From positions 10,261 to 39,723 of the IMG/VR virus record IMGVR_UViG_3300000116_000026: 29,463 nucleotides of DNA, one strand, 5' to 3'. The DNA is from a virus. The notes beneath the pieces were generated by a model. That model did not search any database, was not told where the DNA came from, and saw nothing but the letters and a program-made list of their open reading frames with translations. Each line of letters opens with the position of its first letter. The first letter of the stretch is position 1. A program made the position numbers and the translations under genes. Below, one piece after another: positions 9,578 to 20,245 of the stretch.

Positions 9578-11137
9578 TTATTGTTCCTCAAAGTACCAAA
9601 GACTAGAATCGTTTGGATCGTCTTGATTACTTTGTAATGTGTAATTCGATCCACCTATTTTATATGTATCTCCAACAGTTAGATTTTCCTTAGCTAATTG
9701 TGCAACACCCATGTTATCAAAGTAGTTACTACCTTCTTGTGCGTGAGATGGATCTGCATCGTCGTCTGTAGCTAATGCATTTATTCCATTCATAGATGCA
9801 ATTTTTCCACTGACAATTGATGTAGACTTCGCAGGGGGTTCAGGCATCTGAGTTTGACTTGCAACAACTGCATCAGTCGCCTCCGCCGGATCTACATTTT
9901 CACTTGCGTCATTTGCAAGATCGATGATACCACTGCCAGGATCTGCAAAGATGTTCTGTCCCGCTTTCATAGATATGTCTGCATCACTTTGAAATCTAAT
10001 CGTATCCGTACCTTTAAAGTTCATTCCAACATCACCCTTTGCTTCTTGGAATAAACCACCATCACTCTCAAAACGGATAACTCCACCAGATTTCATACTG
10101 TGTACTTGAGACTGTTGGGTAAACATTTTCTTAGACGATACATTAATATCTATATCAGATCTAATGTTAAGTTCTTTCTTTGCAAATAGTTCCATCGTAG
10201 ATACGTTTGCATCTAACATTACATCTGCACCACGCATTTGTAACTGGTCACTTGCATTTACAAAGAACGATCCACCAACACCAAACTGTGCATTACCACG
10301 AACAATCATGTTGTAATCGCCTTCGATTTCTTCAGTCTTATTACCTGCAACGTAGACATATGCATCATTATTAATAGTAACCATACTTGGGCCACCAACA
10401 TAAACATGGTGTTGTCTATCGTTTACTTCATATTTGTCGCCAACAGACTTGTGTGTTGTTGTACCACGAGCATCAATTTGCACATATGATCCCTCTTTGT
10501 GAAAGATCATAATACGCTCTGCGCCAGGCGTGTCGTCAATTTCAATAGAATGTTTTGCAGTTTCTATAACACGATTGTATGGATACTTTGCACCATATGC
10601 AGGATTCGGTTCGCTCCACGTCACCTGTTCGTCTTCGTTTGGTTCCACGTCTTGTTGACCGGCAATGTACACATTTTCAACACGATTCATTTCCTGTTGT
10701 AAAACATAAGTCTCTTCCAAACTTTCGCTACGTGCTAAACGAGAGTTTTGTGGTTGTCCATAGTCTTTTGGTGCTGATCCACGGGCATTAAGATCACCAT
10801 GACAATCTGGAATAACACCCCATCCATTTGTACTTGGATTTATGGGTGAAGCAAATTGTGAAGGTATCAACCCCAACACTAGTGGGTGTTGCGCTGCACG
10901 TCCATCTAAGAACACGCCATAGACGAAGGAGTTTAGTGGCGGCGGGTGTCCATTTGGATCGTAATCTCCCTTTACACATATTGCCCAAGGTAAATCTGTT
11001 GTAGGAACTTCTTTATTGTCTCCATGAATAGAGAATGCACGAACCTTTACACGGCCCTCAAAATGAGGATCGTGATTGTTTTCTACTACCCCAATAAAAA
11101 ATAGGGGATCTTTTATACCTAACCCTGAATCAATCAT
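9578..11137 (-). CDS. gp5: Baseplate central spike gp5-like, OB fold plus beta-helix, no lysozyme domain
   Basis: A 519-aa protein (T4 gp5 is about 575 aa). Residues 10-110 form the gp5/VgrG OB-fold: FIGVVENNHDPHFEGRVKVR, DLPWAICV, and GRAAQHPLVLGLIP. Later residues (about 200-400) are short alternating beta-repeats (for example AYVYVAGNKTEEIEGDYNMI, MLDANVSTMELFAKKELNIR), as expected of the trimeric beta-helical needle. No lysozyme-like Glu/Asp domain is present between them. It overlaps the gp27-like gene by four bases (ATGA); gp5 and gp27 form a complex in T4. An acidic tail ends in SLWYFEEQ. Confidence 0.88.
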   Translation of the reverse strand: MIDSGLGIKDPLFFIGVVENNHDPHFEGRVKVRAFSIHGDNKEVPTTDLPWAICVKGDYDPNGHPPPLNSFVYGVFLDGRAAQHPLVLGLIPSQFASPINPSTNGWGVIPDCHGDLNARGSAPKDYGQPQNSRLARSESLEETYVLQQEMNRVENVYIAGQQDVEPNEDEQVTWSEPNPAYGAKYPYNRVIETAKHSIEIDDTPGAERIMIFHKEGSYVQIDARGTTTHKSVGDKYEVNDRQHHVYVGGPSMVTINNDAYVYVAGNKTEEIEGDYNMIVRGNAQFGVGGSFFVNASDQLQMRGADVMLDANVSTMELFAKKELNIRSDIDINVSSKKMFTQQSQVHSMKSGGVIRFESDGGLFQEAKGDVGMNFKGTDTIRFQSDADISMKAGQNIFADPGSGIIDLANDASENVDPAEATDAVVASQTQMPEPPAKSTSIVSGKIASMNGINALATDDDADPSHAQEGSNYFDNMGVAQLAKENLTVGDTYKIGGSNYTLQSNQDDPNDSSLWYFEEQ

Positions 11138-15296: not shown

Positions 15297-15905
15297 ATGG
15301 CAGCAACTCTGTTTAATGACATTCTGCTTAGAGGTATTCGTTCAGGACAAGTTCCTGCACGTACTGATGCTGCACGTAAATGGTACAGAGACACTGCACA
15401 AAAGTCTGTAAAGAGTGGCCCAATAAATTCGACGAGAGTTGAAAGAGAATTGAAAGATAGGGGTGGAAACAAATCGGCAGTAGGTTCTATGTACTTCTTT
15501 GCATATGAGGCAAAACATGCAAAGACATTACCTTATTATGATAAGTTTCCTCTGATATTCCCAATCGGCCCTGCACCAAATGGATTCATGGGTATCAATA
15601 TGCATTATTTACCACCTATTTTACGGGCAAAACTGATGGATGCTTTATATGATACAGTTACAAACGATAAGTATGATGAGAGTACTAGATTGAATTTGTC
15701 TTACAAAGTTCTAAACGGAGCTGCAAAGTATAGAGAATTTAAACCGACTATTAAACATTACTTGAACTCACAAACGAGATCTAGATTTTTTTATGTAAAT
15801 CCTGTTGAATGGGATATCGCACTATTCTTGCCAACAGCAAACTTCGTTGGTGCAAGTAAAAACAAAGTATACGCTGATAGTCGTAGAATTATAAGGAACG
15901 GATAA
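15297..15905 (+). CDS. Conserved-type late protein of unknown function (possible DNA-end protector or structural protein)
   Basis: A 202-aa basic protein: MAATLFNDILLRGIRSGQVP, then KWYRDTAQ, LPYYDKFPLIFPIG, GFMGINMHYLPPILRAKL and RSRFFYVNPVEWDIALFLP. These patches look like a conserved fold of marine T4-like phages, but I cannot name the family with confidence. Because T4 places gene 2 (DNA-end protector) next to gene 4, a gp2-like role is one possibility; a head-tail joining or structural role is another. Its stop overlaps the start of the gp54-like gene (TAATG), and GAGG precedes its ATG. Confidence 0.72.
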   Translation: MAATLFNDILLRGIRSGQVPARTDAARKWYRDTAQKSVKSGPINSTRVERELKDRGGNKSAVGSMYFFAYEAKHAKTLPYYDKFPLIFPIGPAPNGFMGINMHYLPPILRAKLMDALYDTVTNDKYDESTRLNLSYKVLNGAAKYREFKPTIKHYLNSQTRSRFFYVNPVEWDIALFLPTANFVGASKNKVYADSRRIIRNG

Positions 15906-16684
15906 TGGCATTTCGCATATCGGAATTTAAATCAACACTAGACCAATTTGGTGGCCCATCACATGCGAACTTGTTTCAGGTTACTATAACTGGTTACCCA
16001 AACAGTGTCAACTCATTAGTTGGATCTAAAGAATTAACTTTCTTTTGTAAGAGCGCTCAAATTCCGTCTGTCCAAATAAACGTTGCAAATTACGAAGCGG
16101 TTGCATCGCTCCCAAAACAATTTCCAATCAGTGTTCAGAATACACCAATTAACACAATCTTTATGTGTGATAGTGATCACGAGATATTAAAGTTCTTTCA
16201 CTCTTGGGTGCAAAGCGTAATTAATATTGGCACTCAAGGTGGAATGCTTTCGGAAGATGACGGCAAACTACCTTTTGAAATTGGTTATAAAGACGAGTAT
16301 TCTTGTCGTGTATCGATAAAACATTTTTCCGTGGACAACGATCCAAGTAGATTTTATGAAGTTGTATTAGATAAAGCATGGCCTAGTTCAATAGGTGACT
16401 TGGATCTTGCATGGGAATCAAACGATTCATATCTAACACTACCAGTTGCATTTTCTTACGATAGAATTGAATATTCAGGATTAAGACCTGGCTCACCAAC
16501 ATCAAGACTAGGACGTGGTTCTGGTTTGTTTGATATCCTTGGTGCAGTTGCAGGTTTTGCTGGTGTAGTACAACAAACAGTAAACCAAGGACTTTCTGGG
16601 GTGACAGGTATACAGGATGCAGTAAACAGGTTCCAACGTGTTAGTAACTCATTCGATAACCTCTCAAGGAGCATAGGACTTTAA
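15905..16684 (+). CDS. gp54: Baseplate tail-tube initiator gp54-like
   Basis: A 259-aa protein with a tail-tube-type fold: NLFQVTITGYPNS, FFCKSAQIPSVQINVANYE, NTPINTIFMCDSDHEILKFF, HSWVQSVIN, then a late strand LPVAFSYDRIEYSG. The C-terminal 60 residues are helical and Gly/Ser-rich, with GLSGVTGIQDAVNRFQR, comparable with the C-terminal part of T4 gp54 (320 aa). Known role: with gp48 it forms the platform on which gp19 tube rings polymerise. The alternative is a tube (gp19) paralog, but gp19 is shorter and usually sits with the sheath gene. Confidence 0.72.
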   Translation: MAFRISEFKSTLDQFGGPSHANLFQVTITGYPNSVNSLVGSKELTFFCKSAQIPSVQINVANYEAVASLPKQFPISVQNTPINTIFMCDSDHEILKFFHSWVQSVINIGTQGGMLSEDDGKLPFEIGYKDEYSCRVSIKHFSVDNDPSRFYEVVLDKAWPSSIGDLDLAWESNDSYLTLPVAFSYDRIEYSGLRPGSPTSRLGRGSGLFDILGAVAGFAGVVQQTVNQGLSGVTGIQDAVNRFQRVSNSFDNLSRSIGL

Positions 16685-16699
16685 TAAGGAGAATATATT

Positions 16700-17401
16700 A
16701 TGTCTTTACCTAAAATTGATCTGCCAATTTTTGAATTGAAACTTCCATCAACTGGCAAGAAAATTAAATATAGACCGTTTACGGTCAAAGAAGAGAAGAT
16801 CCTTCTCGTTGCACAAGAATCAAATGATCGTGAACAGGAACTGTTAGCTGCACGTCAAATTGTCAACAACTGTCTTCAAAACATTGACATTGGAAAACTA
16901 GCCATGTTCGATTTGGAGTATGTTATGTTGGTTCTACGTGCAAGATCTGTAGATAATGCAATTAAATTTACTGTTGGTGATCCCGACACGAAAGAAAGAG
17001 TGGAACTAGAAATCAACGTAGATGATGTGAAAATTGTCAAGGATAAATCACATAGTAAGAAAGTAAGAGTCAACGATCAATTTACTTTGTTTTTAAAATA
17101 TCCTACAATTGACCAATTTTCACAAATTATCAACATGGAGGCAGATGATCCACTCGTGAATTATCATATCATGACCTCTTGTCTAGATCAACTTGCATCT
17201 GAGGAAGAAACTTATAAGTTTGCAGACTATACACAAGAAGAAGTAGATGATTTTATGAATGATATGACAGCTGATGTAATGAAAGACATTCAAAAGTTTT
17301 TCGAAACGATGCCGAAACTCAGACATGAAATGAAGTACACGAATAAAAATGGCGAAGAAAAAACATTCGTCATAGAAGGGATGCGAAGTTTTTTCGTCTA
17401 A
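16700..17401 (+). CDS. gp26: Tail/baseplate-hub assembly chaperone gp26-like
   Basis: A 233-aa protein with a strong ribosome-binding site (AAGGAG). It resembles the T4 gp26-type baseplate protein family: LPIFELKLPSTGKKIKYRPF, TVKEEKILLVAQES, LEYVMLVLRARSV. It lies directly before a 58-aa frame and the tape measure gene, exactly where phages of many types keep their tail assembly chaperones. Near its end there is an in-frame T TTT TTC heptamer (17389-17395) followed by a stem-loop. A -1 slip there would replace the last Val by Arg-Leu and join the 58-aa frame, giving a 292-aa product. Family assignment is moderate; its role as chaperone is inferred from context. Confidence 0.75.
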   Translation: MSLPKIDLPIFELKLPSTGKKIKYRPFTVKEEKILLVAQESNDREQELLAARQIVNNCLQNIDIGKLAMFDLEYVMLVLRARSVDNAIKFTVGDPDTKERVELEINVDDVKIVKDKSHSKKVRVNDQFTLFLKYPTIDQFSQIINMEADDPLVNYHIMTSCLDQLASEEETYKFADYTQEEVDDFMNDMTADVMKDIQKFFETMPKLRHEMKYTNKNGEEKTFVIEGMRSFFV

Positions 17402-17460
17402 TGCTGTGCCATTTGACTCTGAAAGATTACTATCAAATAATCTTTTCTCTGGTGCAGCAT
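17389..17460 (+). promoter_or_regulatory. Candidate programmed -1 ribosomal frameshift signal
   Basis: The slippery heptamer T TTT TTC is in the zero frame of the gp26-like gene (codons AGT TTT TTC GTC TAA). After a five-base spacer comes a 10-bp stem (17401-17410 with 17451-17460, two G-U pairs), enclosing a second perfect 8-bp stem (17422-17429 with 17438-17445). After a -1 slip the frame reads CGT CTA ATG and continues into the 58-aa frame without a stop. Heptamer, spacer length, structure and open -1 frame all fit known frameshift sites of tail chaperone genes (lambda G/GT, P2 E/E'). Confidence 0.72.
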
Positions 17461-17577
17461 CATAAATACTCAATATCAGATATAGAAAATCTTATACCAT
17501 ATGAACGTGACTTATATTTTGCAATGCTGATTAACTTTATAGAAAAACAAAAAGAAGAATCCCAACGGGGCAGGTAA
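17401..17577 (+). CDS. 58-aa tail assembly chaperone partner frame (T-type extension)
   Basis: The frame begins at an ATG overlapping the gp26-like stop (TAATG) and ends right before the tape measure ATG at 17578. It encodes 58 residues, mostly helical: LKDYYQIIFSLVQHH, then SISDIENLIPYERDLYFAML. A short helical frame with a P-Y-x-R/E-R motif just before the tape measure is typical of the second part of tail chaperones. It can be made either as a separate peptide by reinitiation or as the extension of the gp26-like protein through the -1 frameshift. T4 has a separate assembly protein, gp51, with hub functions; homology to it is not claimed. Confidence 0.7.
   Translation: MLCHLTLKDYYQIIFSLVQHHKYSISDIENLIPYERDLYFAMLINFIEKQKEESQRGR
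17461..17468 (+). promoter_or_regulatory. Possible late-type promoter CATAAATA before the tape measure gene
   Basis: One base from TATAAATA, 110 bases before the tape measure ATG and inside the 58-aa frame. It may be coincidence in AT-rich coding sequence. Confidence 0.25.
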
Positions 17578-19434
17578 ATGGCAATTAGTGCAGAAACAGA
17601 AGCAATCTTAGAAAGATTGAAAGCGGAAGGTCAGTTGACTCGTAACAGCGGGGCAAACTCTATTCGATCTGTAAAAATCCAACTTGATCGATTTGAAGGT
17701 ATCTTCAATACTATTTCTGGCAATATTGCTGAACAGACTCAAATGTTAAGAAAGTCTCTTAACATCACGGAAGAAAGTATCGAAGCTCAAAAACGTGCTG
17801 CAGATTTCGCAGAAATTCAACAAAATCAAGTTGATGATGAGAAACCGACAGACACTTCTTCTACAACTGATTCTAAAGAAAAGAGTAAAGGTCTTTTCGA
17901 TATGCTTGCAGGGTTTGGTGGAAGTTTACTTGGACTATTAAAACCAATTTTGATTGGTGGTGCAGGTTTATTTGTAGCTTATAACTTTGCAAAAGGATAC
18001 ATTGATGCAAAAACTGGTGGTGGTTTTACCAAATTTGAAAATGCAATGATCGATACATTTAATAGTGTAGACTGGTCTGCACTTGGTGCATCTTTCATGA
18101 CGTTTGCAAGTAAAGTTCCCGAAGCAATCACATCTATCGTAAACTTTTTATCAGATCCATTGAATGCAATACTCGCAGGCGCAGGACTTACAGCTGCAAC
18201 AATTCTCACAGGTTTTGGTGGAGGCGCACTTGCACGTGGTGTAACACGTGGTATCATCGATGGAGTACTTGGAGGCGGTGGCCGTGATGGTGCAAAGGCA
18301 CCCAAAGGTGGTAAAGGTCTAATGAACCTTAAAAACGTTGCACGTGCCGGCGCATTAGGTATTTTGACAGGCGCACTTGCATACTACGGTGATGATGTTA
18401 AGAATTGGTTACAAAGCGTAGGCGTTCCAGAAGATTGGGCAAAAGTGTCTGTTGATACATTAACCGCTGTTGGAACAGGTGCATCACTTGGTATGATGTT
18501 TGGGCCAGCAGGCGCATTGGTTGGCGCAGCTGCAGGACTTGCATATAGTTTAGGTAAAGGTATTTGGAATTGGTTCAAAGGAAGCAAAGAAGATGCGGAA
18601 AAGAAACTTGAAAAAAGATTAGAACTTGCAGATGCAGCAGAGAATAACCTTGGTGCGTTAGAGAATTATGATGATGCCATATTAAGAGCCGCAAGAATAA
18701 AAAGACCAAACACAGATGGTGCAGTTGGATCTGCAAGTGCATCAGGACTTATGAGTCAGACCGATGCAGAACAACTAGCTCAGGCAGGCAGACTATATGG
18801 TGATGATTTTGATGTTGCATTGGAAAATGCAGCAAGGCCAGATGCAACTGCGAAAGAAATTGTAGAAGTTCAAAAGATGTTGGATCAAGCAACTATTCAA
18901 CATATGAAAGATCGTTATCAGGGGATTCTTGCTCAAAGAGGTCAACTAAGAATGCTTGGGGAAAACCTAGGCGAGATCCAAGATGATCCACTCTACCTTG
19001 AAATGGAAAGACAAATGGATGAACTTAAAGGGTTCATTGAAATGACTAATGGTGAAGATCAAAATTTCATTGATCTTTATCGCATGTTTAGAAATGAAAT
19101 GATGAGTTCTTTCACTGATAGGTTTGATTTGGATGAATATGAAGATATAAAGGGTGATTTGACACCAGAACAAAGACGAATATTTGAAAAACTTCGTGGA
19201 CTGATGGATCCATCTAATGAAATAGGAGCAGTGAGTTCTTTGGGTTCAGCCCAAGCTATGCAACAACTAGCAGACGCTGCAATGGGTAATGGTGGTGGAC
19301 AGGTTGTAATTGGAAAAGTTGGTGGTGATACTTACCAAACGATTCAGAACACAAAGATGGGTGATACTAACTATGCAGAAGTTAAACAGATACAGACTGG
19401 CACTATGTCTTCACACCCATTTGAAGTTGCTTAA
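17578..19434 (+). CDS. gp29: Tail tape measure / hub protein gp29-like
   Basis: A 618-aa protein (T4 gp29 is 590 aa). The N-terminal 95 residues are helical and charged (SVKIQLDRFEGIFNTISGNI). The middle has several hydrophobic Gly/Ala-rich segments (about 105-135, 190-230, 255-275, 300-325), as in tape measures that insert into the host membrane at infection. The last 250 residues are acidic helices ending in a short beta tail (VVIGKVGGDTYQTIQNTKMG). It sets tail length and runs inside the tube. Its position after the chaperone pair and gp54 supports this. It ends convergently with the Fe-S carrier gene; the two stops share four bases (TTAA). Confidence 0.82.
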   Translation: MAISAETEAILERLKAEGQLTRNSGANSIRSVKIQLDRFEGIFNTISGNIAEQTQMLRKSLNITEESIEAQKRAADFAEIQQNQVDDEKPTDTSSTTDSKEKSKGLFDMLAGFGGSLLGLLKPILIGGAGLFVAYNFAKGYIDAKTGGGFTKFENAMIDTFNSVDWSALGASFMTFASKVPEAITSIVNFLSDPLNAILAGAGLTAATILTGFGGGALARGVTRGIIDGVLGGGGRDGAKAPKGGKGLMNLKNVARAGALGILTGALAYYGDDVKNWLQSVGVPEDWAKVSVDTLTAVGTGASLGMMFGPAGALVGAAAGLAYSLGKGIWNWFKGSKEDAEKKLEKRLELADAAENNLGALENYDDAILRAARIKRPNTDGAVGSASASGLMSQTDAEQLAQAGRLYGDDFDVALENAARPDATAKEIVEVQKMLDQATIQHMKDRYQGILAQRGQLRMLGENLGEIQDDPLYLEMERQMDELKGFIEMTNGEDQNFIDLYRMFRNEMMSSFTDRFDLDEYEDIKGDLTPEQRRIFEKLRGLMDPSNEIGAVSSLGSAQAMQQLADAAMGNGGGQVVIGKVGGDTYQTIQNTKMGDTNYAEVKQIQTGTMSSHPFEVA

Positions 19435-19739
19435 ACTGCGAAAGACTCACCACACCCACATGATGCAGTCGCATTTGGATTGACAACTTTGAGATAACTA
19501 CCACCTAGTTCTTGAACGTATTGTACTTCGCATCCAAACAAAAACATTTCAGACATGATATCTACAACAAGAATATCGTCAATGATATCACCTTTAGATG
19601 TATCATCTGTGAAGTCCCACTTATATTGAAACCCAGAACACCCACCACCCTCTACTTGCAAAGAGATGTATTTGGTATCCTTAGTAGATGCCATATTTGT
19701 AAGGTAATTCTTTGCTTCTTCTGATATTGTTAATTTCAT
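19431..19739 (-). CDS. A-type iron-sulfur cluster carrier (IscA/HesB family)
   Basis: Starting at the ATG at 19739, which overlaps the HNH gene by four bases (ATGA), the product is 102 aa beginning MKLTISEEAKNYL. An upstream start at 19754 would add five residues but overlaps the HNH gene more. The three Fe-S ligands of the family are present: C34 in EGGGCSGFQYKW and C94/C96 in SCGCGESF at the C-terminus. Family members pass 2Fe-2S or 4Fe-4S clusters to target enzymes. It is a host-type metabolic gene and may support Fe-S enzymes needed during infection. It ends tail-to-tail with the tape measure gene. Confidence 0.92.
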   Translation of the reverse strand: MKLTISEEAKNYLTNMASTKDTKYISLQVEGGGCSGFQYKWDFTDDTSKGDIIDDILVVDIMSEMFLFGCEVQYVQELGGSYLKVVNPNATASCGCGESFAV

Positions 19740-20245
19740 AAAAATTTTTCCCAACTAGGGTGTTTAATTACAAACTTCTCTAATTGTTTTCGTTTGCGAA
19801 TCAATTCATAATATCCAGGCGCAAATGCTTTGTTTTTTGGATATATAATCTTATCGGACTTCTTGGTGTTACAAGGCCCACACGCTGCTACAATATTTTC
19901 CCAGTTTGTTTTACCACCCCTAGAAACAGGGATGATATGATCCAGAGTTAAATATTTTCTTTCAAACTTTTCAAAACAGTATTGACAAGTATATAGATCT
20001 CTGATATAAAGATTAGTTTTAGAAAAACGAGGTTTCGTTTTTTTACGCATCATGCGTTTCATCATGATGACTGCAGGAACCTTAGTTTCCCAACTAGGGC
20101 TCCTGATCATCCAGTCATCGTACCAATCAAGGACGTGAACTTTATCTAACCACATATATGTTACAGCTTCTTTCCATTTTATAGTACTTAAAGGTATAAA
20201 ACTGATAGGTTGACCATCGGCGTTTAAAACCAGTACATCTGACAT
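19736..20245 (-). CDS. HNH endonuclease domain protein
   Basis: A 169-aa protein. Residues 85-131 are a compact HNH module: zinc Cys pairs CQYC (87, 90) and CGPC (122, 125), with the catalytic DH in LTLDHIIPVSRGGKTNWENI (D102, H103). The N-terminal 80 residues (VLVLNADGQPISFIPLSTIK) are typical of stand-alone HNH proteins found in bacteria and phages rather than intron-homing types. The target is unknown; nicking in recombination, packaging or host-DNA breakdown are options. It shares a four-base overlap with the Fe-S carrier and has its own late-type promoter. Confidence 0.9.
   Translation of the reverse strand: MSDVLVLNADGQPISFIPLSTIKWKEAVTYMWLDKVHVLDWYDDWMIRSPSWETKVPAVIMMKRMMRKKTKPRFSKTNLYIRDLYTCQYCFEKFERKYLTLDHIIPVSRGGKTNWENIVAACGPCNTKKSDKIIYPKNKAFAPGYYELIRKRKQLEKFVIKHPSWEKFL

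Follow-up and report, generated by a model that had tools for sequence, protein, structure and literature searches.

One of the closest described systems to the gene that we analyze here is G/GT of phage lambda, whose slippery heptamer is G GGA AAG. The lambda gene lies between the tail tube and tape measure genes, and shortly before the short form ends, a -1 shift gives a C-terminal extension that is encoded in the -1 frame (Xu, Hendrix and Duda 2004; PMC5009743). Tail assembly chaperone (TAC) genes have also been described in T4-like phages: papers on PRFect (PMC10885494) and on phage Adele (PMC12846349) credit Vladimirov et al. 2022 (PMID 34826709) with these genes and with their TAC-N and TAC-NC forms. 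As that work is cited, poly-T slip signals are known in the TAC-N genes of T4-like phages (PMC12846349), and some T4-like phages have a short gene and a longer fused gene instead of frameshifting (PMC10885494). (The title of Vladimirov et al. 2022 stresses a mechanism other than frameshifting.) In another family, the Vandenendeviridae, the TAC-N gene of phage Adele ends with the poly-T motif GTTTTT, and the -1 frame runs without a stop up to the tape measure gene (PMC12846349). As for T4 gp51, which is essential, a 2010 review described it as a "protein of unknown function" (PMC3004832).

We analyzed a 29,463-nucleotide stretch of viral DNA (positions 10,261 to 39,723 of the IMG/VR record IMGVR_UViG_3300000116_000026), which we call the window. 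It contains what is very probably a TAC gene with programmed -1 ribosomal frameshifting, which would make a short and a long chaperone. In its two domains and its poly-T slip site, the locus matches the T4-like TAC genes attributed to Vladimirov et al. 2022, except that the window comes from an uncultivated member of the group and that T4 itself has the two-gene form. By position and layout, it resembles lambda G/GT, with a different heptamer (T TTT TTC). By motif and layout it resembles the TAC gene of phage Adele, where the motif is GTTTTT and not T TTT TTY. The initial annotation of the window knew of no frameshift at the gp26 position of T4-like phages; to judge by how PMC12846349 credits Vladimirov et al. 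2022, one appears to have been described already. So this kind of gene is known, and this phage is a new, well-supported example. We measured a covarying stem, the turnover of start codons, and the disappearance of the slip site where the genes are split; relative to Vladimirov et al. 2022, we do not claim that these are new.

The features of the locus are:

15905..16684, + strand: upstream gene for the tail tube protein (phrog_45, E = 1.3e-34; PF23849)
16700..17401, + strand: gp26-like gene, putative short chaperone form or TAC-N (PF12322 T4_baseplate, E = 4.6e-56; phrog_150, E = 1.7e-62)
17389..17395, + strand: slippery heptamer T TTT TTC in the zero frame (from the sequence and its conservation in relatives)
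17396..17400, + strand: five-base spacer between the slip site and the stem (from the sequence)
17401..17411, + strand: 5' arm of the outer stem, pairing with 17450-17460 (fold z = -4.4; covariation reached in 0 of 500 shuffles)
17450..17460, + strand: 3' arm of the outer stem (fold and covariation)
17421..17446, + strand: inner hairpin, 17421-17429 with 17438-17446 (folds here and is not conserved; probably non-functional)
17395..17577, + strand: -1 frame, predicted gp51-like C-terminal domain of the long form (phrog_634, E = 3.2e-24; conserved in relatives)
17578..19434, + strand: ORF of 618 aa in the tape-measure position (from its position and a weak match to the HTVC008M tape measure)

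The sequence and the ORF list give a gp26-like zero frame of 233 aa. Around the slip site, the window reads ...GGG ATG CGA AGT TTT TTC GTC TAA TG CTG TGC CAT... The heptamer is in the zero frame, as the initial annotation had it, and ends one codon before the stop (AGT TTT TTC GTC TAA) rather than two. The spacer and the open -1 frame were described correctly. The open stretch of the -1 frame begins 52 nt upstream of the gp26 stop and extends to 17574; within it, a 58-aa frame (17401-17577) starts at an ATG that overlaps the gp26 stop (TAATG), and its own stop (17575-17577) abuts the ATG at 17578 of the ORF in the tape-measure position. A conceptual fusion has 232 + 60 = 292 aa, with 60 aa after the slip.

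The locus sits between the tail tube gene and the ORF in the tape-measure position, as expected of a TAC gene. (In a search of 8 sequences only, that ORF matched the tape measure of HTVC008M weakly, with E = 5e-5.) Profile matches identify the gene neighbors as a baseplate tail tube cap, head closure, DNA end protector, and tail tube. A gene for an HNH endonuclease (19736-20245, - strand; phrog_16726, E = 1e-30) closely follows the ORF in the tape-measure position.

We examined the slip site in 188 loci, which comprise 80 close relatives (61-85% identity), sets seeded from S-PM2, Cr30, HTVC008M, and Va3, and named phages. gp26 is intact and linked in 187 of these, and 96 representatives are less than 90% identical. 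In 186 of the 188 loci (186 of 187 with intact gp26), TTT followed by TTT or TTC is found in frame, with 0-2 codons between it and the gp26 stop. The heptamer is TTTTTTC in 104 of these, TTTTTTT in 79, and GTTTTTT in 3. The two loci without the slip site are from Vibrio phage K364 and from a contig whose gp26 frame is broken after 162 aa (L179:1501-1986). (This contig is 99% identical to HTVC008M at the protein level, and the break is probably an assembly or sequencing error.)

Among the representatives, 95 of 96 encode the Phe-Phe at the slip site as T TTT TTY. These genes contain 94 further Phe-Phe pairs (almost all of them in a conserved FFxTMP), and only 3 of those are T TTT TTY. Therefore, the constraint is on the nucleotides and not on the amino acids alone. 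In other words, a zero-frame heptamer of the form X XXY YYZ, as expected of a -1 frameshift cassette, is conserved beyond the protein sequence. Within the window, T TTT TTY occurs in frame at 1 of the 6805 codon positions of the 19 larger ORFs, and that one is the slip site.

There are two kinds of exceptions. First, L042, L046, and L047 have G TTT TTT (the codon before is ACG); every other intact linked locus outside the Vibrio K364 group has T TTT TTY. At loci of this type, re-pairing in the P site has a mismatch at the first position, which counts against frameshifting. Second, the group of Vibrio phages K364 and D506 (~22% identical) keeps both frames and the TAATG without the heptamer, and has only CTTTTY sites (G CTT TTT in K364, A CTT TTC in D506). 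The initial annotation had said that relatives with both frames and no heptamer would refute frameshifting, and this group is the one such case that we found. These phages may use a weaker slip at CTTTTY, or they may reinitiate.

The RNA downstream of the slip site is predicted to be structured. The minimum free energy of 17396-17470 is -20.1 kcal/mol, versus -9.2 ± 2.5 kcal/mol for shuffled sequences (z = -4.4; 0 of 200 shuffles were as good), and the best fold includes the outer stem. The 10-bp stem that had been noted, 17401-17410 with 17451-17460, is present with one more A-U pair (17411/17450), which makes 11 bp. Across 48 distinct near relatives, the outer stem is paired in 91.5% of cells. 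Both sides have changed in 26 cells, versus 13.0 ± 2.7 in shuffled alignments (0 of 500 were as high), and slid registers score far lower. One pair alternates between T-A (18 sequences), A-T (14), T-G (12), and G-C (1), with at least 9 changes of the 5' base on the tree. A caveat is that few forks of the tree are well supported, so the count of independent compensations is uncertain; a phylogenetic sign test of covariation that used starred branches only had 2 pairs, which is too few for significance.

The 8-bp stem that the outer stem encloses is also present in the window, as reported initially. However, it is 60% paired in relatives, and shuffles and slid registers do as well, so we rejected it as a functional part. 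An alignment of relatives had been suggested as a check on the heptamer and both stems: the heptamer is kept and the outer stem shows compensatory changes, while the inner stem is not kept. Thus, the window's clade has the downstream structure at a short spacer that is expected of a -1 frameshift cassette, in the form of the outer stem.

In the family as a whole, the 68 nt after the slip site have a mean z of -2.85, versus -0.43 for other stretches of the same genes. Some distant members have no strong structure after the slip site (z = 0.0 in HTVC008M and -0.8 in X1). Cyanophages have local hairpins there (z = -3.8 in S-PM2 and -3.65 in P-SSM2). RNAalifold found no common structure in the cyanophage alignment, although single sequences fold well.

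What do the two frames encode? The profile match of the -1 frame is to a family described as "baseplate hub assembly catalyst" (phrog_634), which identifies it as a homolog of T4 gp51. A further match of the -1 frame is to the final part of the phrog_150 profile, the one that the zero frame matches. PF12322 and phrog_634 each occur at one place in the 54.7-kb record, and the two places overlap. We found no second, full-length gp51 elsewhere in the record, which is a 54.7-kb fragment.

In T4, genes 26 and 51 are separate and divergent. PF12322 is found in both T4 gp26 (E = 8.8e-64) and T4 gp51 (E = 3.9e-52). In T4 gp51, residues 147-246 match phrog_634 as well, and almost the whole protein matches phrog_150. 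We also aligned T4 gp51 with a profile built from the conceptual fusions; the alignment spans 230 columns and places the -1-frame part at the C-terminus of gp51. Therefore, the T4 counterpart of the short product is gp26, and that of the long product is gp51. The locus in the window belongs with the T4 gp26/gp51 family by its PF12322 domain and its gp51-type C-terminal domain, and it differs from T4 in that these are not two separate genes. Thus, the two forms that this phage would make by slipping have a gene each in T4.

As in T4, where no T TTT TTY ends gene 26, the slip site is absent from all nine of the split-gene genomes that we examined (T4, PG7, CHI14, VR20, PKO111, fHyAci03, Rgz1, AhMtk13a, and CP-p-KP-21068). 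Linked relatives from the Straboviridae (the Va3/KVP40 type, Ahp1_CNU-2021, and AS-yj) keep T TTT TTC. In Klebsiella phage CP-p-KP-21068 (L200:1501-2792), a long gp51-like protein (246 aa) and a short gp26-like protein (184 aa) are encoded in tandem, unlike the divergent pair of T4. This is possibly a stage of duplication.

We considered whether gp51 could instead be made as a separate protein. Under termination-reinitiation, gp26 would end at the TAA, translation would restart at the ATG at 17401 to give a 58-aa gp51, and the run of T would just encode Phe-Phe. The TAATG overlap is present here and in 18 of the 48 near relatives, and the Vibrio phages K364 and D506 keep it without the heptamer. 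Also, GenBank lists gp51 as a separate gene of ~58 aa in S-PM2, P-SSM2, phiN3, and other cyanophage or T4-like genomes. (In pf16, Cr30, and others, the small gp51 gene is annotated as a hypothetical protein.) Among our loci, GenBank annotates gp51 as its own small gene after the gp26 stop at L082:2720-2893, L083:2723-2896, and L085:2714-2875.

However, an ATG lies within 5 codons after the slip site in only 43 of the 96 representatives, and in 26 of them, none of the first 14 codons is ATG, GTG, or TTG. Even so, these 14 codons are a conserved protein sequence that varies most at the third positions of the -1 frame, and the same pattern is seen in the representatives without a start codon. On the gp26 tree of the 48 near relatives, the ATG state changed at least 12 times, and the slip site was never lost. 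Since the downstream ATG is gained and lost among relatives, reinitiation cannot be the conserved route, and we rejected it as such. In the window itself, the ATG at 17401 has no good Shine-Dalgarno sequence, and reinitiation leaves T TTT TTY unexplained. Overall, we consider it unlikely that reinitiation accounts for this locus. An open and conserved -1 frame that needs no start codon of its own is what a -1 frameshift cassette should have. The initial annotation had named reinitiation at the TAATG as a competing route; in this phage, it may add some separate 58-aa product alongside the frameshift product. By this evidence, the small gp51 genes that are annotated separately would be the C-terminal parts of a frameshift product.

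Slippage by RNA polymerase would likewise join the frames, if a T were added or dropped within the run of 6-8 T in some of the mRNAs. But in 104 of the 186 loci, the site is TTTTTTC, with only 6 T ended by a C, and runs of 6 T are short for polymerase slippage. Also, a covarying RNA stem downstream is a trait of ribosomal slipping and not of polymerase slipping. This makes transcriptional slippage very improbable. The idea that an AT-rich gene has Phe-Phe before its stop and an unrelated small neighbor by chance gains a little from TTT being the commoner Phe codon in these genes (69%), and it is virtually eliminated by the contrast between 95/96 representatives and 3/94 control pairs, by the z-scores and covariation of the RNA structure, and by the disappearance of the slip site from the nine split-gene genomes.

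We also compared predicted structures. We modeled gp26 up to the slip site with AlphaFold2 (mean pLDDT 86.8), and Foldseek found no convincing relative for the model in the PDB. A second aligner gave PDB matches to 3fgx (Z = 7.9), 2ob9 (7.4), 3klu (6.5), and 5ir0 (5.4), with the next at 3.9; these cover the N-terminal residues 1-93. The match to 2ob9, a tail assembly chaperone from HK97, has 83 aligned residues with an rmsd of 4.5, and its Z of 7.4 is at a level that can be reached by chance. So the modeled N-terminal domain of gp26 is compatible with the TAC fold, at a similarity too low to stand alone. The -1 extension is modeled as helical (pLDDT 77), and the 62-aa extension had no match with E < 0.001 in a library of viral structures. 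In BFVD, A0A8S0HX62 (182 aa) has matches to the gp26 model (31% identity) as well as to the -1 extension (44% identity), and it may hold both domains in one frame.

Overall, the comparisons strongly support programmed -1 frameshifting. Relatives preserve the heptamer and not the ATG, the outer stem covaries, no stop interrupts the -1 frame, and genomes in which gp51 has become a separate gene have lost the slip site. The heptamer, the open frame, and the covarying stem all support the initial proposal of a 233-aa and a 292-aa chaperone. We infer the slip itself, its efficiency, and the roles of the products as follows. Most ribosomes would stop at the gp26 stop codon and release the 233-aa short chaperone. 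Some would pause at the stem (17401-17411 with 17450-17460) while the Phe-tRNAs occupy TTT TTC, and these tRNAs would re-pair one base back, on TTT TTT. The slipped ribosomes would continue through CGT CTA ATG CTG and make the 292-aa chaperone, which ends in the 60-residue gp51 domain. The analogy with lambda G/GT suggests that binding of the tape measure protein would fall to the short part, and that the long form would use its gp51 domain to recruit subunits of the tail tube.

We think it is probable that frameshifting in gp26 is the older state in the T4 superfamily and that T4 genes 26 and 51 arose by a duplication that fixed both products as separate genes, with the tandem copies in CP-p-KP-21068 as a stage along the way. 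The stimulatory RNA would be lineage-specific, with a long-range stem in the window's clade and local hairpins in cyanophages. (Vladimirov et al. 2022 may already contain this scenario in part or in full.) Wherever the two forms became separate genes, the slip site was lost, and this offers a natural test of the purpose of the frameshift. The small gp51 genes in deposited genomes such as S-PM2, P-SSM2, and phiN3 would be part of a long chaperone. If these small genes are the C-terminal part only, then expression or functional work on them would use the wrong protein. And T4 gp51, the "hub assembly catalyst," would have a candidate role as the long form of the tail chaperone.
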